NCBI GenBank assembly: GCA_017539165.1
Contig: JAFYHN010000045.1
Location: 1-58,658 of the forward strand
Length of the DNA stretch: 58,658 nt
From: Eubacterium sp.
GTDB taxonomy: Bacteria; Bacillota; Clostridia; Lachnospirales; Lachnospiraceae
Direction of reading: 5' to 3'
Shown here: positions 7,472 through 32,462 of the stretch, in pieces
Numbering within the stretch: the first letter of the stretch is position 1
Layout: every line of letters starts with the position of its first letter
The notes under the pieces: model-generated
Database searches by the model: none
Told to the model about the DNA's origin: nothing
What the model saw: the letters and a program-made list of their open reading frames with translations, nothing else
Program-made: the position numbers and the translations under genes

Positions 7472-9286
7472 ATGAATGAAAACATGCACAATGATGATAT
7501 ACAGGAAATGAACGATTCATATACTTCCGGCAGTGGAGATGCTGCCATGAAGTATGATGAACCGGATTTTTCGTATGTACAGAGTGATCTATATGTTCAG
7601 GACAAGGGAGAGACAAAACACACTTCTCCAAAGAAGAAGCATCATTTTAAGAATTATTTAATTGCGTTTGTTTTAATAGCTGCTGCGCTTCTTCTTATTT
7701 TTGGGGCAACATTTATTATGTTTAACCCGAAAAGGACTTTATATTCAGCATTCAGAAGAACATACAATGAGAAGAACATGACAGAAGGAGCTCCTGGTGA
7801 AGCTTTAAAGGCATTTGAAGTCAGTGGAGGAGAGCTTACGGGAACAGTTACATTTAAGGGTGGCGCTTTAGGCAATCCTGATGTGACTCCTGGTGTGCGT
7901 CTGGACCTTGTTAGAAATAGTGATAAGATGTCCGGGGATGTTGCGATCACCAAGGATAGTGAGGATGCAGCAGTATTAAAGGTTTTTTCAGAAGATGGAA
8001 AATCATATGTTACTGTTGAGAATGTCCTGGATGGATATCTGGCAGCAGATAACAACGGATTTGTAGATATATATAATAAGTCGGCTTTGGCCGGTACATT
8101 TGGAGAGATAAAACCTGATAAGGTTCGTGTCATTGAGATTCTTCTTCAGGGATCGAAGACTATTACCAGTGATGGTGCATCAAATGCAATTCTTAAGCTC
8201 TTTGATGGAGTGTGGAGAGATGCAAAGGTAAAGAAATCAGGAACCACAGAGGTCACTGTGGCAGGTGAACCGGAAACATGTAGAGTTTATAAGGTTACTC
8301 TTCAGAAGAGTGATGCTATAAAACTGATGTCGGGAATAGCTGAATATGTTGGTGACCAAGATGCTGATAAGGCAAAAGATAGAAAGCGTCAGTCTGATCA
8401 GAAAGATCTGAAGCCGGGTGAAGATGATCCGGATAATGTATTCAGTTTCAATATATTTGACGAATTTGGAAAAGAGATTCAGGAGAAGTTCGGAGTTCAG
8501 ACAGATGAACAGCCTGGGATTGAAACTCTCCTTCAGATATTTGAAAATGCTGAAGATGTGGTCACAGGACCGGTCACATTTGATATTTATGCCGACAGCA
8601 AGTATATCAGAGGTTTCTCGGTGGATATGGATATACTGGGCAGCAGTTCGGAATCTGCGACTCTTAGTATTGAAAGTCACAATACAGGTATTAAAAATCC
8701 TATATCCAGTATGGATATGAATGTTGATCTTGCGGATGGTAGTCAGTCTGTAAGTTGTGATTTCAAGGCTTCATATAACAATGACAGCAAGGTGCTGGAT
8801 ATGAAGGTCGTTTCTGAGGCAGGAAAAAAGAACACGACAGCAGAGCTTAGATTTGACACAGGGGCTAGTGTTCAGGTTGCTGAAAGAGATGCAAATCTTA
8901 AGGTTGTGGATATAGGTTCTGCAACAGATGAGGAAGTCAATTCATTTCTCACGCAGAATGCCGCTGAATTTATGGAATTTATCAGCAAGATATCTGATGT
9001 TGTAGGACTTCCTGAAGGAGCAGGAAAGTTATTTGACGATAAAGACGGAAGTAAGAGTATATCAGATTATTTTTCTGAGTTTTTCGACTACTTTAAGGAT
9101 AATAAGTTTTCAGAGTTCTTTGGGGACGACAGTTTTTCAGATTTCTTCGATGATGATTATTTCTCTGACCTTTTTGAAGACTATCCTAAAGATGGAAAGT
9201 CTGGGAACGATTCTGAAGAAAAGAATGATCGTCCGAGCAAAGATAGTGATCCGCTTGGAGATGATGAAGATTCGGAAGATTTTTAA
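7472..9286 (+). CDS. Membrane-anchored extracellular protein with acidic aromatic C-terminal repeats
   Basis: 604 residues from the ATG behind a near-perfect AAGGAGG site (7458-7464). An in-frame GTG 45 bases upstream is less likely. Roughly 65 polar cytoplasmic residues precede one membrane helix (HFKNYLIAFVLIAAALLLIF...), and the rest is extracytoplasmic. The long central part (~residues 90-500) is a beta-rich region without a recognised family. Near the C-terminus is a run of F-S-[DE]-[FL]-F units spaced about nine residues apart, rich in Asp and aromatic residues, ending in an acidic, Ser/Asp-rich tail. It precedes a MraY-like gene by 28 bases. A surface or sensing role is possible, but function is unknown. 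Confidence 0.7.
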   Translation: MNENMHNDDIQEMNDSYTSGSGDAAMKYDEPDFSYVQSDLYVQDKGETKHTSPKKKHHFKNYLIAFVLIAAALLLIFGATFIMFNPKRTLYSAFRRTYNEKNMTEGAPGEALKAFEVSGGELTGTVTFKGGALGNPDVTPGVRLDLVRNSDKMSGDVAITKDSEDAAVLKVFSEDGKSYVTVENVLDGYLAADNNGFVDIYNKSALAGTFGEIKPDKVRVIEILLQGSKTITSDGASNAILKLFDGVWRDAKVKKSGTTEVTVAGEPETCRVYKVTLQKSDAIKLMSGIAEYVGDQDADKAKDRKRQSDQKDLKPGEDDPDNVFSFNIFDEFGKEIQEKFGVQTDEQPGIETLLQIFENAEDVVTGPVTFDIYADSKYIRGFSVDMDILGSSSESATLSIESHNTGIKNPISSMDMNVDLADGSQSVSCDFKASYNNDSKVLDMKVVSEAGKKNTTAELRFDTGASVQVAERDANLKVVDIGSATDEEVNSFLTQNAAEFMEFISKISDVVGLPEGAGKLFDDKDGSKSISDYFSEFFDYFKDNKFSEFFGDDSFSDFFDDDYFSDLFEDYPKDGKSGNDSEEKNDRPSKDSDPLGDDEDSEDF

Positions 9287-9314
9287 AAGATACTTATAGA
9301 TAGGGGATTTTGAA

Positions 9315-10295
9315 ATGTTATACAGTTTATTAAGTGGTAGATTTTCAGATATAATTATCACTGTAATAGCAGCTGCAGTTGGCTTTGTCAGTACTTTTTT
9401 GGTGCTGGCAAGGCCACCTCGTTTTTTGCCTCGTGACGGAGGTAAGTTTATCGTAGATAAGGATGGAAACCGACAGTCAATAAATGAAAAGTCGAATGGT
9501 AAGGTGACAGGAGCGGGATTGATCTTTGTTATCATATTCTTTCTGTGTGCCCTGCTGTTTCTTCCTTTTTCAGTTGAAACATTGATATATCTCGTTCTGG
9601 GATTATTTATGATGCTGACGGGATATCTGGATGATACATCAATTAATCCATGGAGAGAACTGGTCAAGGGAATCCTTGATCTGATACTTTCCGTTTCGAC
9701 GGTAGTGGTATTTCTTGTGTACAATTCTTCAAAGATTTATTTCTTTGGGATGTCATTTAATATGCCTATTGTAGTATATGCGATTCTTGGAACGATGTTG
9801 ATCTGGGCATCAATAAATGTAACAAACTGTACTGATGGAGTTGATGGTCTTAGTGGTACAGTTGCGGTTATTGAGCTTTTTACTATGTTTGTACTTTTTA
9901 GGGATGCTATGGCTGAGAAGAGCGGACTTAGCCTGATCCTTGCATTTGTCCTGTTGGCTTATCTGGCGTATAACTGGCACCCTAGTTCGGTTCTTATGGG
10001 AGACGCAGGATCAAGAACTGTTGGATATGTAATAGCGCTGATCTGTATGCTTTCAGGACATCCTTTTATATTCCTTCTTGTTTCACTTGTATTTATCTTT
10101 GATGGTGGACTTGGACTTCTTAAGCTTGCGGTTATGAGAGTTTTCAAGATCAAGTTTCTGGATAAGATAAGATTTCCTTTTCATGATGAACTTAGGAAAG
10201 TGAAGGGCTGGAGCGTAGCAAAGATAGTGGTATTCTTTACCGTATGGCAGATCATAGACTGCCTGATCGCTGCTGCGATTGTAAAATTCATATAG
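9315..10295 (+). CDS. MraY/WecA-family glycosyl-1-phosphate transferase
   Basis: A 326-residue polytopic membrane enzyme transferring a sugar-phosphate from a nucleotide sugar to undecaprenyl phosphate. Visible family marks: GYLDDTSINPW (aspartate pair), NCTDGVDGLSGT (NxxNxxDGxDGL block), VLMGDAGSRTVG (GD[TA]GS block) and FPFHDELRKVKGWS in the place of the MraY TPxHHHFExxGW loop. Only one His of that triple remains. The overall match is to MraY rather than WecA/TagO, but the gene is outside a visible division cluster, so it could be the cell's MraY or a paralogue. About ten membrane segments are predicted. The start is preceded by GGGGA. Confidence 0.85.
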   Translation: MLYSLLSGRFSDIIITVIAAAVGFVSTFLVLARPPRFLPRDGGKFIVDKDGNRQSINEKSNGKVTGAGLIFVIIFFLCALLFLPFSVETLIYLVLGLFMMLTGYLDDTSINPWRELVKGILDLILSVSTVVVFLVYNSSKIYFFGMSFNMPIVVYAILGTMLIWASINVTNCTDGVDGLSGTVAVIELFTMFVLFRDAMAEKSGLSLILAFVLLAYLAYNWHPSSVLMGDAGSRTVGYVIALICMLSGHPFIFLLVSLVFIFDGGLGLLKLAVMRVFKIKFLDKIRFPFHDELRKVKGWSVAKIVVFFTVWQIIDCLIAAAIVKFI

Positions 10296-19542: not shown

Positions 19543-20997
19543 ATGAGAACTTTTAGTTTTATAGCTAAAAACATTGGAGCAGAGCGTTATCTTACATACA
19601 CCATGGGCGAGGGCATGGAGTTGGATGAAGACGTTCTTGACTATTGCGAAGAAAATGCAATAGACGAGATTGTGAATATCATTTATCAGGAAGATGATGA
19701 TTTTGATTATCTTACCTATGATGTATCCGGCAAAATGACTCTTGAGAAATTCACCGAAAGTGTTGTTAACAAGGAAAAAGTATTCAAGCTTTTAAGAAAC
19801 GTCGCGATCAATATGATAAATATAAAGGAACATGCGATTCCTTTATCATATATTCTTCTTAATAAGAATTTCATGTACATAGATCCGGACAGTCTTGCAC
19901 TTAAATTCTTATACCTCCCGGTTGAAAGTGATGGTTCCGTAGCTATGGAATTTAAGAGCTTTACAAGACAGCTCCTGGCTACGATGAGATATAACGTTGA
20001 TGAAGACCTGTCTTATGTAGGACAGCTCCTCACATATGTTAACGGAGAAAACTTCAATCTGAGAGGACTTATCAATCTGACAGAAGCTCTTATGAAAGAT
20101 GCAGGAATCGACTACTTAACGGAGGGCCAGATTTCTACAGATGATGGAGCGGAAGTTGTCAGCAATGTTGAACTTGCAGGAGAGAAAACAGAAGGTGCAA
20201 CAGACTTTATAAAGGATCTTCAGGATGCTAAGGATCTTCCGGAGATAGGCGATGATGAAGATGAAGACGAAATAGAGGTACAGGAAGAACCTGTTAAGAA
20301 GCCTGTTCTGAAGGAAGTAGAGCCTGCTTCGGCAAGAAAGAAAGCTGCAGCGTCAGCTGATAAAGAAAAGAAAGAAACTGCAAAAACTGAGAAGTCGGCA
20401 GAATCTCTTGATGATATAAAAGCTAAGATTGAAGAGATTGTCGGAAATGAAGACAAAGTCGCTCAGAGCGAAAATAAGCCAAAGCCTGTAAAGGTAAGTA
20501 AAGCTGCTATGCTTAAAGCTGCTGCTGAAAGTATAGAAGAGGAAGAAGCTGAAGAGGCAGCAAAAGAAGCTGCTAAAAATCACGATGAAAAGAAAGACGA
20601 TAAAGGCGATGAAGAGAAGAACGAAGGTGGTGGACTTCTCGGAGCAGTTACAGGCGCTGTGTCTAACGTGGCAGATAAGATTGGAAATAACACAATCAAG
20701 ATCAACCCTTACCTGATAAGAAATGAAACTGAAGAGAAGGTTATAATTGCTAAGCCGGTATTTAAGATTGGTAAAGCAAGCAGAGGTGTTGATTTCCACG
20801 TTGGAGGAAATGGAGCTATCAGCCGTCAGCATGCTATTATCCTTCACAAGGGTGATGATTATTTCTTAAAAGACAATAAGTCTACAAATCATACATACCT
20901 TGATGGAAAACAGCTTGAGCCAGATGAGGAAGCTCAGCTTAAAGACAACAGCATAATCCGTCTTGGAGATGAAGACTTTACATTTAAGATGGGCTAA
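19543..20997 (+). CDS. FHA-domain protein with DUF6382-like N-terminus (A)
   Basis: 484 residues, cytoplasmic. The N-terminal ~190 residues form a DUF6382-like domain shared with the second FHA protein (SVVNKEKVFKLLRNVAINMI...IPLSYILLNKNFMYIDP). A ~200-residue very charged Glu/Lys/Ala linker follows, and a C-terminal FHA domain spans ~405-484. FHA domains read phosphothreonine. Here the usual Gly-Arg is Gly-Lys (FKIGKASRG), SRQH is kept, and NGT is changed to NHT (STNHTYLDG), so binding may be altered. A TAGGAGGGG site lies before the ATG. It opens the locus with FHA-B, phosphatase and kinase. Confidence 0.88.
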   Translation: MRTFSFIAKNIGAERYLTYTMGEGMELDEDVLDYCEENAIDEIVNIIYQEDDDFDYLTYDVSGKMTLEKFTESVVNKEKVFKLLRNVAINMINIKEHAIPLSYILLNKNFMYIDPDSLALKFLYLPVESDGSVAMEFKSFTRQLLATMRYNVDEDLSYVGQLLTYVNGENFNLRGLINLTEALMKDAGIDYLTEGQISTDDGAEVVSNVELAGEKTEGATDFIKDLQDAKDLPEIGDDEDEDEIEVQEEPVKKPVLKEVEPASARKKAAASADKEKKETAKTEKSAESLDDIKAKIEEIVGNEDKVAQSENKPKPVKVSKAAMLKAAAESIEEEEAEEAAKEAAKNHDEKKDDKGDEEKNEGGGLLGAVTGAVSNVADKIGNNTIKINPYLIRNETEEKVIIAKPVFKIGKASRGVDFHVGGNGAISRQHAIILHKGDDYFLKDNKSTNHTYLDGKQLEPDEEAQLKDNSIIRLGDEDFTFKMG

Positions 20998-21290: not shown

Positions 21291-21319
21291 AGCCAAGATA
21301 AAGCCATAGGGGGAGAATG

Positions 21320-23266
21320 ATGGAAATAAATAATATCAGGATTGAAGGAACCGGTAATATGATGACGATGAAGTACTCGCTTCTGCCGTCAGATGAAATA
21401 GATGATACCGCGTTGGAAAGAATTAAAACGAATTCACCGGAAGGGATAGTGCCTGTCCAGGTCATGGATATATCGGGAGTAAGAACTCTGTTTGCTCAGT
21501 TTTCAGGCGGAGTTACTCTGAAAAACTATCTGAAGAATGTACTGGATAAGCGTTCTGTATTGGAACTGCTTAAGAGCCTTATCGCATGTATGGATATAGG
21601 TAAGTTTGGAATACCTGTAAGCTATATCGCGAAGAAGTCTGATTATATCTATGTGGATACACAAACGCTTAAGGCAAGTTGTTTCGTTATTCCTGTAAAA
21701 GGAGATACGAATGATCCTAACGAAGTTCGCAGATTTTTGAGAAGCGTTGTTTCAAGGATGAGATTCAGTGATAGTGATACGGATAATTATGTTGCAAGAA
21801 TGCTGACCATCCTTAATTCAGATAGATTTTCGCTTAATGAAATGAACGTTTTGGTGAGTGAGGTACAGCTTGAGATGGAAGAGGCTCAGCTAGGTGACGC
21901 GCCAACAGGTGAGGCAAAGGTAGATAAGATGGGAGTCCTTAGAAACAGGGCATCTCAAAGTTTTCCTCAGCAGCCCCCATTTGGAGGACAGCCACAGTTT
22001 CAGCAACCACAGTTTGGTCAGCAGCCGCCTTTTGCAGCACAGCCACAGTTCAGTCCTCAACCGCAGTTTGGCCAGCAGCCGCCATTTGTACCACAGCCAC
22101 AGTTCAGTCAGCAACCATCGTTTGCGGCACAACCTCAGTTCCAGCAACCACAGTTTGATCAGCAACCCCAACTTGCACCACAACCAGTTTTAAATGAGCC
22201 TCCTGTTAAAAGATTTGATCCGATGACAGGACAGCCTTTAAATAATCCATTACCGGCAGAGGAGCCACGACCAGAAACTCCGATTGAGGAAGTGACGCCA
22301 GAAGCACCAGTAGAAGAAACAGCACCGGAAGTGCCGGCAGAGGAATCACAACCAGAAACTCCGATTGAGGAGGTGGCACAGGAAACACCAGTAGAAGAAA
22401 CAGCACCGGAAGCCCCGACAGAGGAGCCGCAACCAGAAACTCCGATTGAGGAAGCGGCACCAGAGACAGCACCGGAACATCCGCAGGGACCGACGGGAAT
22501 GCCTGGTTTCGATTTCCAGACAGGACCTTCGTTTGATGATCCTATTGGGGACGATATTCCAAGGTTTGAGGTTCCTTCTCAGGAAGAGATTTCAAGATAT
22601 AACGATGGATTAGATAGCGGAACAGAAGAACCTGCTCCTGTTAAGAGGTTTGATCCTATGACGGGACAGCCGTTAGAGAATAACAATATTCCGATGGGCC
22701 AGCCGTTTAATCCTTTTACTGTGGAAAGTCCGTTTATTCCACAGAATCCAATCTATAATCCGTTTGGTGAACCGTCACCAATGGATAATCCATTCGCAGG
22801 TGAGCTGCCGGTAGCGAATCCTTTTGCAGGACAGCCACCGATGGATAATCCGTTTGTAGGACAGCCACCAATGGACAATCAATTCATAGGGAATCAGTCA
22901 GGACCGGTTCCTCCTGCAGAGATGCCTTCCGATGGGCAGCCAGAACAGGATCCGAACCTTCCGAGACCACATTTTGTCAGAGAAAAAACTGGCGAAAAGA
23001 TATTTATTGACAAAGACGAATTCAGAATTGGAAAGTCGAAGATTCACGCCGACTATGCCATTGAGAATAATACCGCGATCAGTCGTGTTCACGTAGTTGT
23101 GACAAAAAGGAATGGAGTTAGCTATCTTAGGGATAATGAATCTACAAATGGAACATGGATAGAAGGCGAAAGATTAGAGCCGGGGAGAGAGGTACTTCTC
23201 AAGGCAAATATGAAGGTTAAGTTCGGTGACGAAGACTTCACATTCTACCTTAGAGAGGGAGTATAG
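21320..23266 (+). CDS. FHA-domain protein with DUF6382-like N-terminus and Pro/Gln/Glu repeats (B)
   Basis: 648 residues. The N-terminal ~190 residues are paralogous to FHA protein A (VLDKRSVLELLKSLIACMDI...IPVSYIAKKSDYIYVDTQ). A ~360-residue disordered part follows with three repeat types: [FPQ]-rich QPQF/QQPPF units, Glu/Pro units of the PETPIEE/APVEET kind, and NPFAGQPPMD units. The phrase VKRFDPMTGQPL occurs twice (22205 and 22640). The C-terminal FHA domain (~565-645) has FRIGKSK, AISRVHV and ESTNGTWIEG, more canonical than in protein A but also Gly-Lys. The second of two adjacent ATGs is favoured by spacing from AGGGGG. The stop is four bases before the phosphatase. Confidence 0.88.
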   Translation: MEINNIRIEGTGNMMTMKYSLLPSDEIDDTALERIKTNSPEGIVPVQVMDISGVRTLFAQFSGGVTLKNYLKNVLDKRSVLELLKSLIACMDIGKFGIPVSYIAKKSDYIYVDTQTLKASCFVIPVKGDTNDPNEVRRFLRSVVSRMRFSDSDTDNYVARMLTILNSDRFSLNEMNVLVSEVQLEMEEAQLGDAPTGEAKVDKMGVLRNRASQSFPQQPPFGGQPQFQQPQFGQQPPFAAQPQFSPQPQFGQQPPFVPQPQFSQQPSFAAQPQFQQPQFDQQPQLAPQPVLNEPPVKRFDPMTGQPLNNPLPAEEPRPETPIEEVTPEAPVEETAPEVPAEESQPETPIEEVAQETPVEETAPEAPTEEPQPETPIEEAAPETAPEHPQGPTGMPGFDFQTGPSFDDPIGDDIPRFEVPSQEEISRYNDGLDSGTEEPAPVKRFDPMTGQPLENNNIPMGQPFNPFTVESPFIPQNPIYNPFGEPSPMDNPFAGELPVANPFAGQPPMDNPFVGQPPMDNQFIGNQSGPVPPAEMPSDGQPEQDPNLPRPHFVREKTGEKIFIDKDEFRIGKSKIHADYAIENNTAISRVHVVVTKRNGVSYLRDNESTNGTWIEGERLEPGREVLLKANMKVKFGDEDFTFYLREGV

Positions 23267-23270
23267 AAGA

Positions 23271-24041
23271 ATGGAATTCACAGCGACCTATAATACTGAT
23301 ATTGGTATCAGAAAAAGTACCAATCAGGATTCGCTTGCTATGCGAATTATAGACACGCCTGACGGGGAAGTGGCGTTTGCCATTGTGTGTGATGGAATGG
23401 GCGGTCTTGCAAAGGGTGAACTTGCTTCGAAAGAAGTTATAGATGCTTTTTGTAAATGGTTTGATGAAGATTTTTGTGCTCAGGTAGTTGATGGAACATT
23501 TACAGCACTGAGGTTGAGAGATGATTGGAACGGAATAATTCAAAACGAGAACCGTTTGTTGGGAATATATGGTTCTGATCACAATATTATGCTGGGGACC
23601 ACGATATCCGCATTGCTTATTTACAGAGATGAATTCTACATAGTACATGTAGGTGACAGTAGAGTTTATGAGCTTGCAAATAATGTCAGGATACTTACAA
23701 AGGATCAGACATTTGTTGCAAGAGAAGTGGCGGCGGGGAGAATGACTCCTCAGGAAGCAAAGATAGATCCGAGACGAAGTGTTCTTTTGCAGTGCGTGGG
23801 GGCGTCTGCAACAGTAGTACCGGATTTTCTGAAAGGTAAAGCACAGAAGGGGGCAGTATATTTTGTTTGTTCTGATGGATTCAGACATCAGATATCAGAC
23901 GAAGAAATAATGGAGAAGTTGGGGCCTGACAGCACACCAACAGTAGAAGAGTTAAAGTATGGTTGTGTATATCTAACAGAGCTCGTAAAAAATAGGAAAG
24001 AGACAGACAATATAACAGTAGCAGCAATAAAAACTATTTAA
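23271..24041 (+). CDS. PP2C-type Ser/Thr protein phosphatase
   Basis: 256 residues of the metal-dependent PPM family, cytoplasmic. Metal and phosphate motifs in order: RKSTNQDSLAM, VCDGMGGLAKG, TTISALLIYRDEF, HVGDSRVYEL, LTKDQTFV, VCSDGFRHQI and a closing DNITVAAI. It removes phosphate from Ser/Thr, here presumably from the kinase and its targets encoded next door. The ATG is chosen because GGGAG lies shortly before it and the conserved domain begins at once. A GTG 15 codons upstream would overlap the previous gene. The tight packing suggests coupled translation. Confidence 0.95.
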   Translation: MEFTATYNTDIGIRKSTNQDSLAMRIIDTPDGEVAFAIVCDGMGGLAKGELASKEVIDAFCKWFDEDFCAQVVDGTFTALRLRDDWNGIIQNENRLLGIYGSDHNIMLGTTISALLIYRDEFYIVHVGDSRVYELANNVRILTKDQTFVAREVAAGRMTPQEAKIDPRRSVLLQCVGASATVVPDFLKGKAQKGAVYFVCSDGFRHQISDEEIMEKLGPDSTPTVEELKYGCVYLTELVKNRKETDNITVAAIKTI

Positions 24042-24054
24042 TGGGGATTAAAGA

Positions 24055-26196
24055 ATGTTAAAAGAAGGTACCGTACTGGACGGAAAATACGAAATATTGA
24101 GACGAATAGGCGAAGGTGGTATGTCTATCGTTTATCTTGCTCGTAATAACCGTATGAACATGCAGCTTGCCGTTAAGGAGATTAAGAATGACGGCTCCAA
24201 AAGCATGGAAATACTTCTGAAGGGGTTGGAACGTGAGGCAAATATCCTGAAGAACGTGGATCATCCTGTTATTCCACGAATCGTCGATATTGTTAAGCAC
24301 GGCGGCACTATCTGCGTTGTTATGGATTTTATCGAAGGGGAAAACCTTGCAGATAAGCTCAAAGAAGTAGGAAGTTTCTCTCAGGAGCAAGTTATTGAAT
24401 GGGGTCTTGAACTTGCATCTGCTCTAGATTATCTTCACTCGATGAACCCTCCTATCATTTACAGAGATATGAAACCTTCCAATGTCATGCTTAAGCCGGA
24501 TGGAGGAGTTAAGCTGATCGACTTTGGAACGGCCAAAACATATGATATAGAGAATAATGCTGATACCACAGCTCTCGGAACTAGAGGTTATGCTGCTCCG
24601 GAGCAGTTTGGTGATGCATTTGGACGAGGAATATACAAAACGGATGCCCGTACAGATATATATAATCTGGGCGCCACTCTGTATCACATGGTTACAGGAA
24701 AGAATCCTCAGGAACCACCATATGAGATGGTTCCGATCAGACAGGTAAATATGTCGCTGTCTACCGGACTTGAGGAGATCATCCTTAAATGTACGAAACC
24801 TAATCCGAATGAGAGATATCAGTCCTGTTCGGAACTTATATATGCACTGGAACACTATACAGAGCTTGATGAGAGTTATATAAGACAAAACAGAAAGAAA
24901 GTTACTCTTTTTGCAGCTACAGCAGCACTTACTATGATATGTGCACTTCTTTCGGTCGGCGGCAAAGTTGGAATGAACAGAAAGGCTGCCGAGAATTACT
25001 CCGCGTATGTAGAAGCGGGAGATATGAAAAGAGTTGAAGGCGACTATACAGGTGCGGCTCTGGAGTATAAGAAAGCATTTGACTTGAATGAAAAAGAGAC
25101 GGATGCCTATATAAAGTTTATAGATCTATATATAGATGCACATTCGGATGTTGAGTCAACTAGTGGAGTTGATCTTAATTCGGGATTGACTGTAATCGCC
25201 AATAAGATAAAGGACGGAGTTGGTGGAGTTGACGAGAACAACGAAGTACTCTACAGAATGGGTCTGGCTTACTTTGTTGAACTAAAGGATCCAAAAACTG
25301 CGGCAAAGTATTTTACCAAGGTCGATCCGGAAGATGAAGTATATGGTCAGCTGGCAGGATATTACGGACATATATCGACAATCCTCATGAGTGCCAATCC
25401 GAATCCGAATGAACTCATTCAGAACGTTGATGAGTTTGCAGAGTACAACAAGAATAATATTTCAAATGATAATGAACAGAAGTTTATAAATTATAAAACT
25501 ATAGGTTCGCAGTATACGACTTATTTATCGGTTGAAGGTGTTCCTGAGAAATCCATCCAGAGGATGGAGGAGGCGCTTGAGGCGCTTGACAGTTACACGG
25601 GAGATGGTCAGGCGGACTATGCATATGAATTCAGTCGTAATCTGGCTGAAACTTATTTCCAATATGGACAGAGTAAGATAACTGAGGAAGGTGATGTTAC
25701 TGAAGCAAAGGATGATCTCCTCAGTTCAGTGGATTACTATCAGGAAGTGGTTGATCTTATAAGTGGTAAAGTAAATGTAGGAGCTACTACTTCGAATGAA
25801 ACTGTTAAAGGATATATCACCAGTTATGTTGTTGCTATGAATCGCATAGCGGAGATATATGGACTTATTGGTGACAAGGATAAAGCGGTTGAAGCATATA
25901 AGAAAGCAGAGGCTGACTTGGGAGAAGGAAATCCTGAAGCTAAAGCGGTATATGCTGCACATCTATATTTTCTGTATTCGATATTTAAGAATACCAATCA
26001 GGATCCGGCAAAGTGGACGGCAGATCAGAAGAGAGAGATCCTGGAGGTGTATCATAATGGTAACAAGATAGATGGAATACAGGATAATCAGACCTGGAGA
26101 AAACGTTCCAGCGATATGGAGAATCTGGAAAGTGGTATGGGTTCTTCTTCCAAGGATAAAGCTGATGATAAAAATTCATCAGAGGAAGGAGAGTGA
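24055..26196 (+). CDS. Transmembrane Ser/Thr protein kinase with extracytoplasmic TPR-like region
   Basis: 713 residues. The kinase domain spans ~12-275: Gly loop GEGGMS (19-24), Lys41, YRDMKPSN catalytic loop (136-143, Tyr for the usual His of HRD), DFG 156-158, an activation segment with NADTTALGTRGYAAPEQ, and DARTDIYNLG. One membrane helix follows (~284-302). The outer ~400 residues hold TPR-like helical repeats (GDYTGAALEYKKAFDLNEKE, GDKDKAVEAYKKAEADL) and end in an acidic Ser-rich tail. There are no PASTA repeats, so it is not a PrkC orthologue. The outside part may sense or bind a protein. It follows the phosphatase by 13 bases. Confidence 0.95.
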   Translation: MLKEGTVLDGKYEILRRIGEGGMSIVYLARNNRMNMQLAVKEIKNDGSKSMEILLKGLEREANILKNVDHPVIPRIVDIVKHGGTICVVMDFIEGENLADKLKEVGSFSQEQVIEWGLELASALDYLHSMNPPIIYRDMKPSNVMLKPDGGVKLIDFGTAKTYDIENNADTTALGTRGYAAPEQFGDAFGRGIYKTDARTDIYNLGATLYHMVTGKNPQEPPYEMVPIRQVNMSLSTGLEEIILKCTKPNPNERYQSCSELIYALEHYTELDESYIRQNRKKVTLFAATAALTMICALLSVGGKVGMNRKAAENYSAYVEAGDMKRVEGDYTGAALEYKKAFDLNEKETDAYIKFIDLYIDAHSDVESTSGVDLNSGLTVIANKIKDGVGGVDENNEVLYRMGLAYFVELKDPKTAAKYFTKVDPEDEVYGQLAGYYGHISTILMSANPNPNELIQNVDEFAEYNKNNISNDNEQKFINYKTIGSQYTTYLSVEGVPEKSIQRMEEALEALDSYTGDGQADYAYEFSRNLAETYFQYGQSKITEEGDVTEAKDDLLSSVDYYQEVVDLISGKVNVGATTSNETVKGYITSYVVAMNRIAEIYGLIGDKDKAVEAYKKAEADLGEGNPEAKAVYAAHLYFLYSIFKNTNQDPAKWTADQKREILEVYHNGNKIDGIQDNQTWRKRSSDMENLESGMGSSSKDKADDKNSSEEGE

Positions 26197-26202
26197 TGGA
26201 CC

Positions 26203-27084
26203 ATGGGAATATATAGTGTAATGTATTATGGCGGACTGGTTCTGTCGATACTCTTCCTTATCGCTTCGGTTATCATATTCTTCGTAATGAAGATTCCTCA
26301 CGCTTTTGGAATAGTTACAGGTAGAACTCAGAAGAAGGCTATAGAGGAGATCAGGGCCGGGGGAACATTTAGAAAAGGTAAAAGGAAAGTAAAGCAAAGC
26401 GATATTCTCGTAAGAGATGTAGATGTTTCTGGAATGTCATCTGCACCACTAAAAAAAGATAAGTCAGGTGCGATGGAAGAGGCTAGAAAAAGAGCTGAAG
26501 CCGATGCAAAAGCGGCGGTTGAAAAACAAGCTGAAGAGATGGCTATTCAGGAAGCAGAGGCTGCTAAAAATGTTGAGGAACAAGATACTGAAGTCCTCAC
26601 ATATAATGATATGAAAAACAAGAACAGAGCGGTTCCATCTGGGGAGGAATCTACTTCCGTTCTTGGAGCGGAGCAGGATACAGATGTTTTAAGAATTTCA
26701 GAAACTGCTTCCAATACAGATGAAAATGACAATTCGGTCGATATAAAAGATTCCGATAGGACGGCAAGAGGTGCTTCGGTGGGGATGCCTCCGAAAGCAA
26801 ATGCTTCAGTAGATGAAGAAACTCCAACAGATCTTCTCAGAAACAAACCTAGAGGTAATATAGTGCCTGATGCTGATGTGACGGATGTTCTGATAGCGCC
26901 GAATATAGGATTTGATTCAAACAGCAATGATATATACGGAACTGTAAGTCCGGAGACAACATCAGTGCTCAGAGCTGATATGGTTATGGGGGTTGATTCT
27001 GTCAAACCGGCAGGGAAAAGAGATTTTCCTGAAATAACTGTCATCTACAGTGAGACGGTGGTCCACACAGATGAGAGTTTATAA
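26203..27084 (+). CDS. Single-pass membrane protein with six Thr-x-[V/L]-Leu motifs (candidate phospho-scaffold)
   Basis: 293 residues: one N-terminal membrane helix (~10-30), a basic juxtamembrane stretch (RTQKK...FRKGKRKVK), a Glu/Ala/Lys helix (~90-125), then a disordered acidic tail. The tail has T129-EVL, T151-SVL, T160-DVL, T209-DLL, T227-DVL and T253-SVL, each with Leu three residues after the Thr in an acidic setting. The last sits in ETTSVLRADM, nearly the ETTSVFRAD motif phosphorylated in actinobacterial GarA/OdhI. Because FHA domains favour phospho-Thr with a hydrophobic or Asp at +3, I infer a kinase substrate that docks the neighbouring FHA proteins. No family name is recognised. 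Confidence 0.8.
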   Translation: MGIYSVMYYGGLVLSILFLIASVIIFFVMKIPHAFGIVTGRTQKKAIEEIRAGGTFRKGKRKVKQSDILVRDVDVSGMSSAPLKKDKSGAMEEARKRAEADAKAAVEKQAEEMAIQEAEAAKNVEEQDTEVLTYNDMKNKNRAVPSGEESTSVLGAEQDTDVLRISETASNTDENDNSVDIKDSDRTARGASVGMPPKANASVDEETPTDLLRNKPRGNIVPDADVTDVLIAPNIGFDSNSNDIYGTVSPETTSVLRADMVMGVDSVKPAGKRDFPEITVIYSETVVHTDESL

Positions 27085-27098
27085 CAAGGAGGGGAGAA

Positions 27099-30000
27099 AT
27101 GAAAAGTATTAAGAAAGGCGGCGATAAGCTGAAAAGGCCAATGAGCATCAGAGTGCTTGCACTTGTGATGGCATTTATCATGGTCCTATCAGTAATTATC
27201 ATTACCAATCGTGATGGTGAGGTTAGTGCCGTTAGTGAAATGGTTTCCGAGACTACATATCTTTCTGGTATGCAGATCAGTTATGGTGATACCTATACGG
27301 TGCATGTGCCGTGCGATAATATAAGATTTACGTTGCCTGCACTTCCAAGTACAGAACCAAGCTCAGAGAATGTTGATATATATACAAATGAAGGTAAGAC
27401 AGCTTGGTCTTTGACGGAAACAGATGATTTAAAAATAAAATATTCTGCAAAGAAAACCAGTACAGTATCTTATGAATGGGCTGGTGATGTGAGTTCAGAT
27501 GGAGAAAGTCATTTTATTACTTCTGCGGAAAGTGGAACTAAAACCGCAGTTATAAAAAAATCTGAAGAAGTTGAATATAAACGTCCAGAAGATAATACAG
27601 TTATAGGTGAACTAACTTCGAATTCATCATCTGATAGTAACTCATTTATAATTCAGACAGATGTTCCGGAGAAAGTTACTATCAATTATGAGACTTGCAG
27701 AGTTATTGATAAAGATGGTTTAAGAACTGATAGTGCAACTGAATTCTATTATGGAGAGCCTCAATATATTGTTGAAGTTAAAGAGGGTGATGAATATAAG
27801 CTGAAGGGGACTGAAAATTACGAAACTCTCGATAACCTTATTAGCAGTGGACCCGATGAGACGTATTATGTTACTAAGTACATGATTGGTGAATATAGTT
27901 CGAGTGGTATAGAACTATATAAGGCATCTACTGAAACACTGGTTAAGAATTCGGTAGTAATACTAAACAATTCAATTAAAGAGGTTGATGGTGCAGCTGA
28001 ACTAAGTAAAGAATATGATGGTTCTTTAAGTCTTAAAGGAGTAAATCCTAATCATAAGGTAAAGGTTTCTTTTACAACAGATGACGATAGTTGTACCTTT
28101 GTGACGAATCCGTCAGTGCCTATTGAGGGAACAGGATATAATTATGAGTTTACTGTAGATGGTGATATAAGCAAGAATAATAAAACAGTTGATTATGTGG
28201 TTTCAGTCACAGATCATCATGGTTTAACAAAAGACCTTGCAGTGAGCATTGTATATGGTGACGGAACTCCGGTTATTACAGGAGATTCCTTATCAGGTGT
28301 AACTGAAGTAGAAGGTGAGAATTATGTGAATGGTGAGCTGGAGACACTCACTGTCAGTGCAAATGCTTCTGCTCCAAATTCTTCGATAACTTCAGGAAAA
28401 GTGGGAATCTCTACAAGCTATGATATGACAGGAGAGACACTTGGTGATGCTTCCGTAGATACAGACGGAAATATCACAAAAGAATATACATTAAGTGATC
28501 TTACAGAGGGAAATAATTATTTCCGAGTATGCGCTACAAGCGATTACGGAATAGAGAGTAAATCAAATACTAAACTTAACGTAGTACTGGATTCAAAGAA
28601 GCCGACGATTTCTAACGTTGCACTTAAACAGGATGGAAAATCAATAGCTGATGGTTCTCATATAACCTGTATTAATGATGCTGAGATCTCATTTGATATA
28701 GCTGATGAAACTCCTTCAAGTGGTATTGACAGTGTTGAAGTAAAAAGGGCAAAAACAGGAGGAGAATATCAGCCGGTTTCAGAAATTCCGGAGATATCAG
28801 GAGGAAAAGCAACATTAAAGATTCCTGCGGATAACGATAACTCAGGAAATACATATACCTATAAGTTTGTAGCATATGATAAAGCGGGAAATAAGTCTTC
28901 AGAGACTGAAAAGGAAGTTACTTTTGATAATGATATGTCTTTGAAGATCGCTCGAACAGTTACGCCTTCTGTGGTTAATGACTTTACAGTATGGACTGAC
29001 AGCACAAAAGTAGCAGTAATAGAGTATGAAGTTACTTCTGATGTAGATATAGATGAATTTGCTACTATATCTCTTGACGGAGAAGACGTATCCGATTCAT
29101 CTGCTTTTGAAAAAACAGATAAAAAACATTATAAGTATACACTTAATTATTCTCAAAGTAAGACTGTTAAGAACATAGTATTAACAGTAAAGAATAAAAA
29201 TGGACATAGTGTTTCGGATACACTTGAAGTTCTTCACATTGATGTGGCAGATCCTCAGGATAATGGAATCTCAGGTGATTCAAAATGGCAGAAGAGTTTT
29301 GTTCTGACAGGAACTGTCAGCGATCCTCAGGATGGAGATTCAGATGCTGTATCCGGACTCGAATCAGCTAAGTATACTATTACTAATTCTACTAAAGATG
29401 CATCTCAGACTATAGATGTTTCGAGTGGAACCGGAAATGTCAGTATATCTGTACCAGAGTCTAAAACAAGTGCGGGTACTAGCATAACATTTGACTTAAA
29501 AGATAAAGCAAATAATAGTTATACAAAAACATATACTTACTACATAGATAATACTGCCCCTAAAGCAAATCTTAGTGTGTCTGGTAAAGATCTATCAAAA
29601 CTTTCCGATTACTATCTTAAGAATGATCCTGTCATTAAGTATAGCGGAAGTGATGGATTAAGTGGTCTTGCGGATACTGATGGAATTGTATTTAAGATTA
29701 ATGGAAATGAGTACAAAAATGTATCTGGAAAGAAACTTAGTGAAATAGTAGGCGGTACAAGCGATACTACAGAATATAATATTGAGCTTATAGTTACAGA
29801 TAAAGCCGGAAACAGTTCGGTTGAAAAAGCTAGTTTCATGGTTGATATATCTGAACCGGATATTACTATCGATAAGTCGATTGATGGAAAGTATACCAAT
29901 TCAAATGTAACAGTAAAGGTTGAAGTTAAGGAATCAAACCTTAAGGAATATACAATCAAGAGAAATGGTAAGGATGTTAATGTAAAACTTACTAAGAAGA

Positions 30001-32462
30001 ATGATGTATATGTTGGTTCATTTACAGTAGATAAGAAAAACTATGGTACCAACAAGATTGTAGCGGAAGTTACTGATGAGAGTGGTAATAAAGCTGAATC
30101 TTCATTGTCATTTGTAATAGATACAAAGGCTCCATTAGTAACGACTCAGATTTCGAAGGATGGAAATACGTGGTATGACTTCAGTGTGGACGAACCACTT
30201 GATGAGTTCCTTAAGTTCTATCCATATGTAAGAGTTAAGGTTAAGGATGACTATGAAGATCCTGATAGTGAAGATGTCGAAATGACATTTACACCATTCG
30301 ATGATTCGGATGGATATACAGATACTGTTTTAGGAAAGAAATATCGTCTGTCTGCAGCGAAAGGTAATGAAGAAGGTCAGTACGAATTTGACTTTACAGT
30401 AAAAGATAAAGCTGGTAATAAGGGTATAAATGTTACCGGTGATCATACTGAAGAAGAGGCTTCAACTGATCTAAGAATGTGCTTCTCGATCGATAAGACA
30501 GCACCAAAGCATAACTTGTATATTACAACGCCAAATCCTGCTAATTTTGACAAGTTCAACAATACCTATAAGAATGTTGTTCACAAGTTCAAGAACAAGA
30601 AGGATCAGGAGAATTATCAGTACGGACAGTATTATAACGGTAGGGTTACGATTGATCTCAGCGCATATGATAATTCGCTTAACTATGATGGAGAAGTAAC
30701 TATAATGCACAGTTATAAGGCTCCGGGAGCTTCATCTGCTACGCTCTATGAGAATGATGAACATATAGTATATGTTAGCGATTATGAATGGTCCGGTGGT
30801 TCAAATGTACATTATAAGTACAATACGATATATGTTGATGAGCCAGGTGAACATGAGATATGGCTTAAGTCTAATGATCATGAAGATCCGGGTGATGAAA
30901 TAGGCGGTTACAATACTACAAATGATAGTGTACATCTCTTCTTTACGATAGATAATGCAGCTCCTGCTATTGGACTTTATCTGAATAATAGTCCTTACAG
31001 TGCCGGAGCAGGCAATATGTATTCATCAAATGTATCTGCATATGCTTCAGTATCGGATTACAATCTGGATTATATTGTAAGAAATTACACTATTAATCCT
31101 CCACTTGGTAATTCGGTATCATCAACAAATGAGAATTACGAAAATGCAACAAGCGAATTATTTGATACAGAAGCTGATTATGTAATTGATTATACTGCTT
31201 ATGATAAAGCGGGATATGCTTCAGCCGGAACGAACTCGATGACATTCCGTATCGATAAGACTGCACCGGAACTTAGTATTTCCGGACCTGGAGATTCCAC
31301 AACTCAAAAGTCAACGGTGACATTTAGCATGAAGGAAGCCTTTTATGCAGATATGGAACCAGGAAAGATTACTATATATAGAAGAGTAGATGGAGCGGGT
31401 GAATCGGTTTATGAAACTATCGACTTTAAACCGAGCGGACCAAGTGATAGTATAAGCCGATCATTTGATCAGGACGGCGAATACAGGATGGAGTTCACCG
31501 CAACAGACAGAACAGGAAATACTTCAAAGACTGATTATACATTCTTCCAGGATGCGGATGCACCTCTTATCACACTTGGAGGTGTTAAGAATTACGATAT
31601 GACTGATACCGATGTTGAATTCGGAGTAACAGTTAATGAGACATTTTATTCAACCAACAATGTAAAGCTTTCAGGAACAAGAACTGATATAGATGGAAAT
31701 AAAGAAGCGCTAAAGTTTGACAGCTTCCCATCTAACAGCTCGATTTCAACACTGAAGCAGATGTTTACACTTGATGGTATCTACGATATCAACGTTACTT
31801 CAAGAGATAAGGTTGGAAATGAAAGCTCAGAAGATATTCATTTCACAATAGACAAGACAGATCCTCTCATTGGAATTATTCCTATAGAGGATGGAGCGGT
31901 TCTGAAGGAATTCGCTTGGGATGTCAAGGAAGACAAACTTATCAGAGACCTTACAGTTTGTGAAGTGAGTGTATATATCGATGGTGTACTTTACGACGGA
32001 GTTTCAACAGTTGAAGACGGAAGTCATGTTCTTAAAGTAGAAGCAATAGATGAGATGGGAAATAAGTCTTCTAAAGAGATTACATTCCTTATTGATTCTA
32101 TAGCTCCAAATATCATGATCTCTGGAATTGAAGACGGACAGCGTGTTGAAGTAGCACCTACAGTAAGAGTTTCGGTTCAGCTGGATGATGATACCTTGAA
32201 CACCGTTAAGCTGGATGGCAAGGTGGTCAATATCGAGAATAATGAAGCTGAATTTACAGTAAATGATAAAGGCAACCATAAGATTGAGGCTACTGCAGTT
32301 GATAAAGCCGGAAATGAATCTGAAGTTACTCTTAAGTTCTCGTATGGTGATAAAGTCAACTTGTTACCTATATTTATAATAGCAGGAGTTATCATTCTTC
32401 TCTTGATAGCGGCATTTATAATAATTAAAAGAAGGAATGCAAATAAATATTCCGCATTATGA
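27099..32462 (+). CDS. Very large Ig-like repeat surface protein, anchored at both ends
   Basis: 1787 residues. An N-terminal signal or anchor helix (RVLALVMAFIMVLSVIIIT) comes first, and a C-terminal membrane helix with a short KRRNANKYSAL tail last. Between them are about ten to twelve Ig-like beta domains recognisable by recurring joints such as DNTAPKANLSV, DTKAPLVTT, DKTAPKHNL, DKTAPELSI, DADAPLITL and DKTDPLIGI, and by DKAGN turns. There is no LPxTG sorting signal. A role as adhesin, wall-binding stalk or surface sensor is plausible. It starts 14 bases after the scaffold gene behind an AAGGAGGGG site, so it belongs to the phosphorylation operon, and the terminator that follows closes it. 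Confidence 0.9.
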   Translation: MKSIKKGGDKLKRPMSIRVLALVMAFIMVLSVIIITNRDGEVSAVSEMVSETTYLSGMQISYGDTYTVHVPCDNIRFTLPALPSTEPSSENVDIYTNEGKTAWSLTETDDLKIKYSAKKTSTVSYEWAGDVSSDGESHFITSAESGTKTAVIKKSEEVEYKRPEDNTVIGELTSNSSSDSNSFIIQTDVPEKVTINYETCRVIDKDGLRTDSATEFYYGEPQYIVEVKEGDEYKLKGTENYETLDNLISSGPDETYYVTKYMIGEYSSSGIELYKASTETLVKNSVVILNNSIKEVDGAAELSKEYDGSLSLKGVNPNHKVKVSFTTDDDSCTFVTNPSVPIEGTGYNYEFTVDGDISKNNKTVDYVVSVTDHHGLTKDLAVSIVYGDGTPVITGDSLSGVTEVEGENYVNGELETLTVSANASAPNSSITSGKVGISTSYDMTGETLGDASVDTDGNITKEYTLSDLTEGNNYFRVCATSDYGIESKSNTKLNVVLDSKKPTISNVALKQDGKSIADGSHITCINDAEISFDIADETPSSGIDSVEVKRAKTGGEYQPVSEIPEISGGKATLKIPADNDNSGNTYTYKFVAYDKAGNKSSETEKEVTFDNDMSLKIARTVTPSVVNDFTVWTDSTKVAVIEYEVTSDVDIDEFATISLDGEDVSDSSAFEKTDKKHYKYTLNYSQSKTVKNIVLTVKNKNGHSVSDTLEVLHIDVADPQDNGISGDSKWQKSFVLTGTVSDPQDGDSDAVSGLESAKYTITNSTKDASQTIDVSSGTGNVSISVPESKTSAGTSITFDLKDKANNSYTKTYTYYIDNTAPKANLSVSGKDLSKLSDYYLKNDPVIKYSGSDGLSGLADTDGIVFKINGNEYKNVSGKKLSEIVGGTSDTTEYNIELIVTDKAGNSSVEKASFMVDISEPDITIDKSIDGKYTNSNVTVKVEVKESNLKEYTIKRNGKDVNVKLTKKNDVYVGSFTVDKKNYGTNKIVAEVTDESGNKAESSLSFVIDTKAPLVTTQISKDGNTWYDFSVDEPLDEFLKFYPYVRVKVKDDYEDPDSEDVEMTFTPFDDSDGYTDTVLGKKYRLSAAKGNEEGQYEFDFTVKDKAGNKGINVTGDHTEEEASTDLRMCFSIDKTAPKHNLYITTPNPANFDKFNNTYKNVVHKFKNKKDQENYQYGQYYNGRVTIDLSAYDNSLNYDGEVTIMHSYKAPGASSATLYENDEHIVYVSDYEWSGGSNVHYKYNTIYVDEPGEHEIWLKSNDHEDPGDEIGGYNTTNDSVHLFFTIDNAAPAIGLYLNNSPYSAGAGNMYSSNVSAYASVSDYNLDYIVRNYTINPPLGNSVSSTNENYENATSELFDTEADYVIDYTAYDKAGYASAGTNSMTFRIDKTAPELSISGPGDSTTQKSTVTFSMKEAFYADMEPGKITIYRRVDGAGESVYETIDFKPSGPSDSISRSFDQDGEYRMEFTATDRTGNTSKTDYTFFQDADAPLITLGGVKNYDMTDTDVEFGVTVNETFYSTNNVKLSGTRTDIDGNKEALKFDSFPSNSSISTLKQMFTLDGIYDINVTSRDKVGNESSEDIHFTIDKTDPLIGIIPIEDGAVLKEFAWDVKEDKLIRDLTVCEVSVYIDGVLYDGVSTVEDGSHVLKVEAIDEMGNKSSKEITFLIDSIAPNIMISGIEDGQRVEVAPTVRVSVQLDDDTLNTVKLDGKVVNIENNEAEFTVNDKGNHKIEATAVDKAGNESEVTLKFSYGDKVNLLPIFIIAGVIILLLIAAFIIIKRRNANKYSAL

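Follow-up and report, generated by a model that had tools for sequence, protein, structure and literature searches.

The window analysed here is a 58,658-nucleotide stretch of contig JAFYHN010000045.1 from a Eubacterium sp. (Lachnospiraceae), in which two proteins with FHA domains, a phosphatase, a Ser/Thr kinase, a small membrane protein and a large surface protein are encoded one after another on the plus strand. Our subject is the small membrane protein, which we call the dock. Its open reading frame (ORF) of 293 amino acids lies at 26203–27084, and sequence and alignment reveal a single N-terminal transmembrane (TM) segment (26224–26292, identified by reading and kept in the dock alignment), conserved residues in the juxtamembrane region, and an acidic tail that bears six copies of the motif T-x-[V/L]-L. 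Since basic residues follow the TM segment, the tail is probably on the cytoplasmic side. The dock had no match to any Pfam family at an expectation value (E) of 0.001, nor to any NCBIfam model above its cut-off.

The six motifs are TEVL (motif 1, Thr129, 26587–26598), TSVL (motif 2, Thr151, 26653–26664), TDVL (motif 3, Thr160, 26680–26691), TDLL (motif 4, Thr209, 26827–26838), TDVL (motif 5, Thr227, 26881–26892) and TSVL (motif 6, Thr253, 26959–26970), the last lying within the GarA/OdhI-like sequence ETTSVLRAD. In an alignment of 24 docks, the window counted, the Thr and +3 Leu of motifs 1, 3 and 4 occur in 100% of the rows, as do the Thr, Val and Leu of motif 6; the corresponding values are 92% for motif 5 and 67% for motif 2, which belongs to a stretch absent from several rows. 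Overall identity to the window is 93% at the motif Thr, 93% at the +3 Leu and 23% at the other tail positions, while the seven non-motif Thr positions are 16% identical. A first-pass annotation of this DNA had named conserved Thr and Leu amid variable linkers as a check of its reading, and this comparison, one of those it gave as able to overturn that reading, came out in its favour. The acidic context which it had also claimed is present in that D or E stands at −3 to −1 of every motif, but the exact position varies.

The placing of six motifs in this one ORF was correct, and the case proved stronger than claimed since 200,000 shuffles of dock residues 36–293 never reached six (mean 0.134, maximum 3). 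The ratio of observed to expected motifs is 18.8 for the docks (37 proteins) versus 0.86 for MltG, 0.92 for reader 1, 3.84 for reader 2, 0.47 for the phosphatase, 1.15 for the kinase, 0.88 for the surface protein, 0.56 for NlpC and 0.81 for SecDF from the same loci; nine of the 14 matches in reader 2 come from the strand that closes the FHA domain, which reads TFLL or TYLL. The shuffles together with these ratios rule out a chance cluster, and the ratios likewise dispose of the view that the motif is common to the whole operon. The idea that it typifies any gene following a Ser/Thr kinase was not borne out in loci L130–L152, where clustered acidic T-x-[VIL]-L motifs were found in no ORF of at least 80 amino acids following the kinase within flanks of only about 1500 bases.

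Close relatives are defined here by their matches and by the kinase tree, the genus being unlabelled for L078–L118. Their 39 docks (38 loci and the window) contain 259 instances of T-x-[VIL]-L and two of S-x-[VIL]-L; Thr and Ser as such are nearly equal in frequency. The residue after T-[DESA]-V is Leu in 191 cases, A, N, K and R in one each, and never V, I, M, F, Y or W. All four Thr codons are used at each of the invariant columns Thr129, 160, 209 and 253, and the Leu columns paired with them employ four to six Leu codons each; this turnover of codons at fixed Thr and Leu positions led to the rejection of a low-complexity or mutational artefact as the source of the motifs. The number of motifs per dock ranges from 5 to 9 in 39/39 close relatives (window counted) and from 2 to 9 across the 30 docks of a single-sequence search, with only L025 below five. 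Thr and Leu are thus kept while the linkers drift and the motif number varies, indicating that selection maintains the motif itself in preference to the surrounding protein.

The C-terminal tail of the dock (EITVIYSETVVHTDESL, 27031–27081) is also conserved in the dock alignment, with the consensus I-x-V-x-Y-S-E-T-[IV]-V-H-T-[DE]-E-S-L. A related HT[DEN][ED] ending is found in several, not all, of the docks of other families and orders, and the tail is possibly a second, putative, binding element. Repeats are visible in two further docks. That of L030 has tandem repeats around GRGGYEDATDVLSG. L119, from a neighbouring lineage, possesses a related dock (8998–9789) with six motifs, mostly TTLL, built on a different repeat, EGDExTTLLxRE, which suggests motif renewal through repeat expansion.

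As the first-pass annotation had proposed, Pfam places a kinase, a phosphatase and two FHA proteins beside the dock. Reader 1 (19543–20997) comprises a DUF6382 domain (19648–20055), a linker and an FHA domain (20764–20967), as indicated by Pfam, structure models and fold searches; reader 2 (21317–23266; Pfam) has the same plan, with DUF6382 at 21401–21823, a Pro/Gln/Glu-rich linker, and FHA at 23024–23227. They are followed by a PP2C-type phosphatase (23226–24041; Pfam PP2C_2, 38.8 bits; probable start ATG at 23271 by reading) and by the kinase (24055–26196; Pfam Pkinase, 160.9 bits, and TPR), which has a TM helix at about 24901–24960, by reading, and a TPR-containing C-terminal part that is probably extracellular. 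Downstream of the dock is a TsdI/TseI-like surface protein of 1787 amino acids (27099–32462) with an N-terminal hydrophobic segment, immunoglobulin (Ig)-like domains (Pfam Big_13 and Big_3_2) and a C-terminal TM segment (32361–32426), the ends being assigned by reading. The order MltG, reader 1, reader 2, PP2C, kinase, dock and Ig-like protein recurs in most close relatives with enough flank. ORF maps show exceptions: a single reader in L109 and L119, three reader ORFs in L105, a minus-strand ORF ahead of the kinase in L055/L093, and an uncalled PP2C in L056/L097; part of these may be artefacts of ORF picking. In other families and orders the order is FHA protein, PP2C, kinase and dock.

By reading, the kinase contains the catalytic motifs of an active Hanks-type enzyme, AVKE, YRDMKPSN (residue 136) and DFG, and its activation loop is DTTALGT (24562–24582). 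The pattern D-T-x-x-L-G-T is found in all 29 kinases of such modules in which the loop could be located, and in a second comparison T-x-x-L was present in 7/7 module kinases versus 2/21 other kinases. This is a weak hint of a code shared between kinase and dock. Since the module kinases have this T-x-x-L loop in common, the dock tail could be a mere mimic of the site in the kinase itself, and would then be a sink or threshold device in which multiple threonines buffer or count kinase activity, with FHA binding secondary or absent. Such a device, however, would be expected to tolerate Ser and other +3 residues, whose near-absence fits a selective phosphothreonine reader better; furthermore, FHA genes adjoin the PP2C, kinase and dock genes in most loci with enough flank, the ORF maps of L073 and L074 being those in which none was recognised. 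We consider a sink unlikely.

Both neighbouring readers have the FHA fold. The phosphothreonine pocket of the Rad53 FHA domain is formed by G69, R70, S85, H88 and N107 (PMC5549992). The two readers retain these residues but for a Lys in place of the Arg, and the equivalent G, S, H and N are invariant in 26/26 FHA domains. In pattern, the dock motifs are consistent with the peptides to which OdhI and DgcB bind through their FHA domains. The first-pass annotation had likened ETTSVLRAD to the actinobacterial proteins GarA and OdhI. The type of motif, a Thr with hydrophobic +2 and +3 residues, is indeed present as T-S-V-L at Thr253 in 24/24 rows, but by Pfam the dock has no FHA domain and the first Thr of ETTSVLRAD is identical in just 12% of the rows. 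With that Thr variable and the second one invariant, the second alone is a promising candidate. GarA and OdhI carry motif and FHA in cis, whereas here they are on separate proteins and the motif is repeated. The fold search ranked Bdellovibrio DgcB with the structures closest to the reader FHA; its FHA domain binds the peptide pT-S-I-V of a tail, with Glu at −2, and it differs in recognizing a single self-peptide site, with a cyclic di-GMP output (PMC6733907). A DgcB tail lacking phosphate has been observed in the groove of the FHA domain (PMC6733907), and the hydrophobic +2 and +3 residues could on their own drive binding, so that T-x-V-L might act as an unphosphorylated short linear motif for a hydrophobic groove on a reader, its DUF6382 domain or another partner. 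The substitution of Ser for Thr in only 2/261 cases, and the presence in the operon of both a kinase and a phosphatase, speak against this, and we give it little credence.

The modelled DUF6382 domain of reader 1 has a kinase-like predicted fold (Foldseek, query TM-score about 0.4–0.65), its best matches being TraF (E 6.5e-5), Mnk1 (E 1.2e-4) and YukC/EssB (E 2.3e-4). HRD and DFG were not seen by reading in the examined part of a 26-row alignment. The likeness to the EssB/YukC pseudokinase and to TraF is a fold match of the model; ordinary kinases score equally, and DUF6382 differs from both in being joined by a long linker to an FHA domain. We did not find a kinase-like fold of DUF6382 described in a literature search.

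We regard the dock as probably being a multivalent phosphothreonine platform for the FHA readers, written by the kinase and erased by the PP2C phosphatase. This builds on the motif, its conservation, the Thr/Leu preference, the operon, the mostly intact phosphothreonine pockets and the model folds; from these we infer phosphorylation, FHA binding, multivalency, sensing and output. The dock would serve as a membrane-anchored substrate and scaffold of the adjoining kinase, the TPR part of which, perhaps with the Ig-like surface protein, would sense the outside. Several of the T-x-[V/L]-L threonines would be phosphorylated, and each phosphothreonine would then be bound by one of the two readers through its FHA domain, whose groove the +2 Val and +3 Leu would occupy. 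Up to six readers, each with its kinase-like DUF6382, could thereby cluster under the membrane until PP2C resets the dock. Related arrangements have been described. In the type VI secretion system of Agrobacterium a membrane-protein Thr of TssL is phosphorylated by PpkA, after which an FHA protein is bound; that system involves one Thr, and we saw no sequence link (PMC3953482). In mycobacteria, an FHA protein, FhaA, is recruited by the phosphorylated membrane protein MviN in a pathway that includes PknB and a pseudokinase; the pseudokinase belongs to the membrane partner in that case, whereas in ours the kinase-like DUF6382 belongs to the FHA reader (PMC12599244).

A single-sequence search revealed the dock in 32/36 other genomes of the genus and in 0/24 genomes of other families; loci were retrieved for 30 of its 33 matching genomes. 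When 146 genomes of the order were searched with a profile, 11 had a match, the window's own among them; nine others are left once G071 is dropped, its match (L044, E 0.007, in a 520-amino acid ORF with no kinase alongside) looking spurious. The ten dock loci from these nine genomes comprise nine with at least two motifs and one, L037, with a single motif. The 45 named dock loci derive mostly from uncultured Lachnospiraceae and Eubacterium sp., many of them from the rumen, and L118 is from Eubacterium ruminantium ATCC 17233; motif counting over this set left out L105 (66 amino acids, near the locus end) and L109, L115 and L119 (dock uncalled by the ORF picker). In the midpoint-rooted kinase tree the close relatives and L067, a member of another genus with which L103 groups, cluster as a single group of 40 (ultrafast bootstrap 89; Shimodaira–Hasegawa-like approximate likelihood ratio test, SH-aLRT, 99), which is outside the fully supported branches.

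Several observations weigh against the platform. The pocket Arg (Rad53 Arg70) is replaced by Lys in 26/26 FHA domains, which might weaken phosphate binding, and +3 selectivity by FHA domains is a debated rule (PMC4037201). The dock was not found in 4/36 other genomes of the genus (completeness 73–87%). The dock of L122, which has the same gene order, lacks the motif while its reader has two; the docks of L125, L126 and L037 have one each and that of L025 two. A DNA-pattern scan of the genome for a related single motif gave 44 matches versus 32 in the reversed control, which is near chance, so that only the cluster of motifs is informative. Finally, the single-sequence and 45-locus sets overlap in genomes and their rows are all related, and the counts are accordingly not independent.

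The gene set is not wholly new. The type VII secretion systems T7SSe and T7SSj, published in 2024, include a kinase D (with TPR in TsjD), a phosphatase F, a DUF6382-FHA protein J, and a protein K with a single TM segment and an unstructured cytoplasmic stretch; H, found in T7SSe and not in T7SSj, is similar to K, and protein I is Ig-like in a T7SSd example (PMC11217815). By architecture, not orthology, the window has D, F, J, K and I: a TM kinase with TPR, a PPM phosphatase, a DUF6382-FHA protein, a single-TM protein with an unstructured tail, and an Ig-like surface protein with a C-terminal TM segment. The dock is likened to K on this basis, K and H both being candidates. The differences are the two J-like readers, the dock tail of 5–9 Thr motifs, and a genome without detected EssC, WXG100 or YukD. 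The first-pass description of an undescribed signalling hub was consequently too strong, these being components of T7SSe/j (PMC11217815), here without the secretion core. The excerpted text of PMC11217815 mentions no Thr motif in a small membrane component, a literature search did not find the T-x-[V/L]-L motif of the dock described, and matches to the letters ETTVL were unrelated by title.

This resemblance raises the question of whether the dock is a TseK/TsjK-like part of a type VII machine, the phosphorylated tail recruiting the FHA domains of an EssC-type ATPase and so gating secretion. Locus L072 is a type VII locus with EssC (TIGR03928, 1044 bits, cut-off 778) and two WXG100 matches beside the same genes, namely an FHA protein, PP2C, kinase and dock, together with a 164-amino acid membrane protein and a 1915-amino acid Ig-like protein; WXG100 matches were obtained in 9/12 genomes outside the genus taken as module bearers, six of them above the cut-off. 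The genome of the window, on the other hand, had no WXG100 (TsxA) or YukD-like (TsxB) match at E 0.1 and no EssC/TsxC over the cut-off of 778, the best being an FtsK-like stretch of 120 bits, which already makes such a role unlikely there. WXG100 was found in 14/41 genomes of the genus, 11 above the cut-off; among G001–G036, which are of uneven completeness, 13 have dock and WXG100, 19 the dock only, four neither and none WXG100 only. We judge a secretion component to be very improbable.

The motif is found in FHA proteins of the module as well. GarA and OdhI each bind their own phosphorylated N-terminus through their FHA domain (PMC2784874). Outside the close relatives T-x-[V/I/L]-L, usually TTVL or TSVL, stands ahead of FHA in 8/10 module FHA proteins found by pattern; the motif of L119 is TGLL, and L067 and L068_8 have none. 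Further FHA proteins with the motif before FHA are L068_1, L069_6 and L075_2, identified by reading and missed by the FHA pattern, plus L125 and L126. Among the readers of close relatives only 4/52 have it in the 15–110 residues before the FHA pattern, and within this group the motif is almost limited to the dock. The genome of the window encodes four DUF6382 proteins, the two in the window without the motif and two elsewhere with one TTVL each before FHA. This distribution suggests that the FHA ligand may have moved from reader to dock. It is conceivable, though we hold it only tentatively, that the dock is a bacterial counterpart of LAT-like eukaryotic scaffolds, a surface-sensing kinase phosphorylating 5–9 threonines and so clustering pseudokinase-FHA readers, and that a module shared with type VII systems became autonomous when the ligand moved from cis to trans and multiplied. 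If the platform is real, it would be a bacterial signalling scaffold made from copies of a single phospho-motif, and a control module associated with secretion that persists without a secretion system. The dock is proposed as a concrete, testable ligand for the unexplained DUF6382-FHA proteins; the small, “unstructured” membrane component of T7SSe/j-type loci would thereby gain a role, and the wiring of kinase and phosphatase there is predicted.

Three proteins with one motif each were noticed in passing. An ORF at 8606–9907 of L076 (G000:C46) encodes a DUF6382-FHA protein with FFETTVLM before FHA and adjoins genes that by reading are Tad-type-pilus-like. In L077 (G000:C53) the ORF at 7845–8771 specifies a 308-amino acid DUF6382-FHA protein with DGTTVL before FHA, among apparently unrelated neighbours. 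Lastly, an ABC-transporter ATPase at 1319–2446 of the window has a long Asp/Thr/Ser-rich C-terminal tail with one NTDVLIDG.
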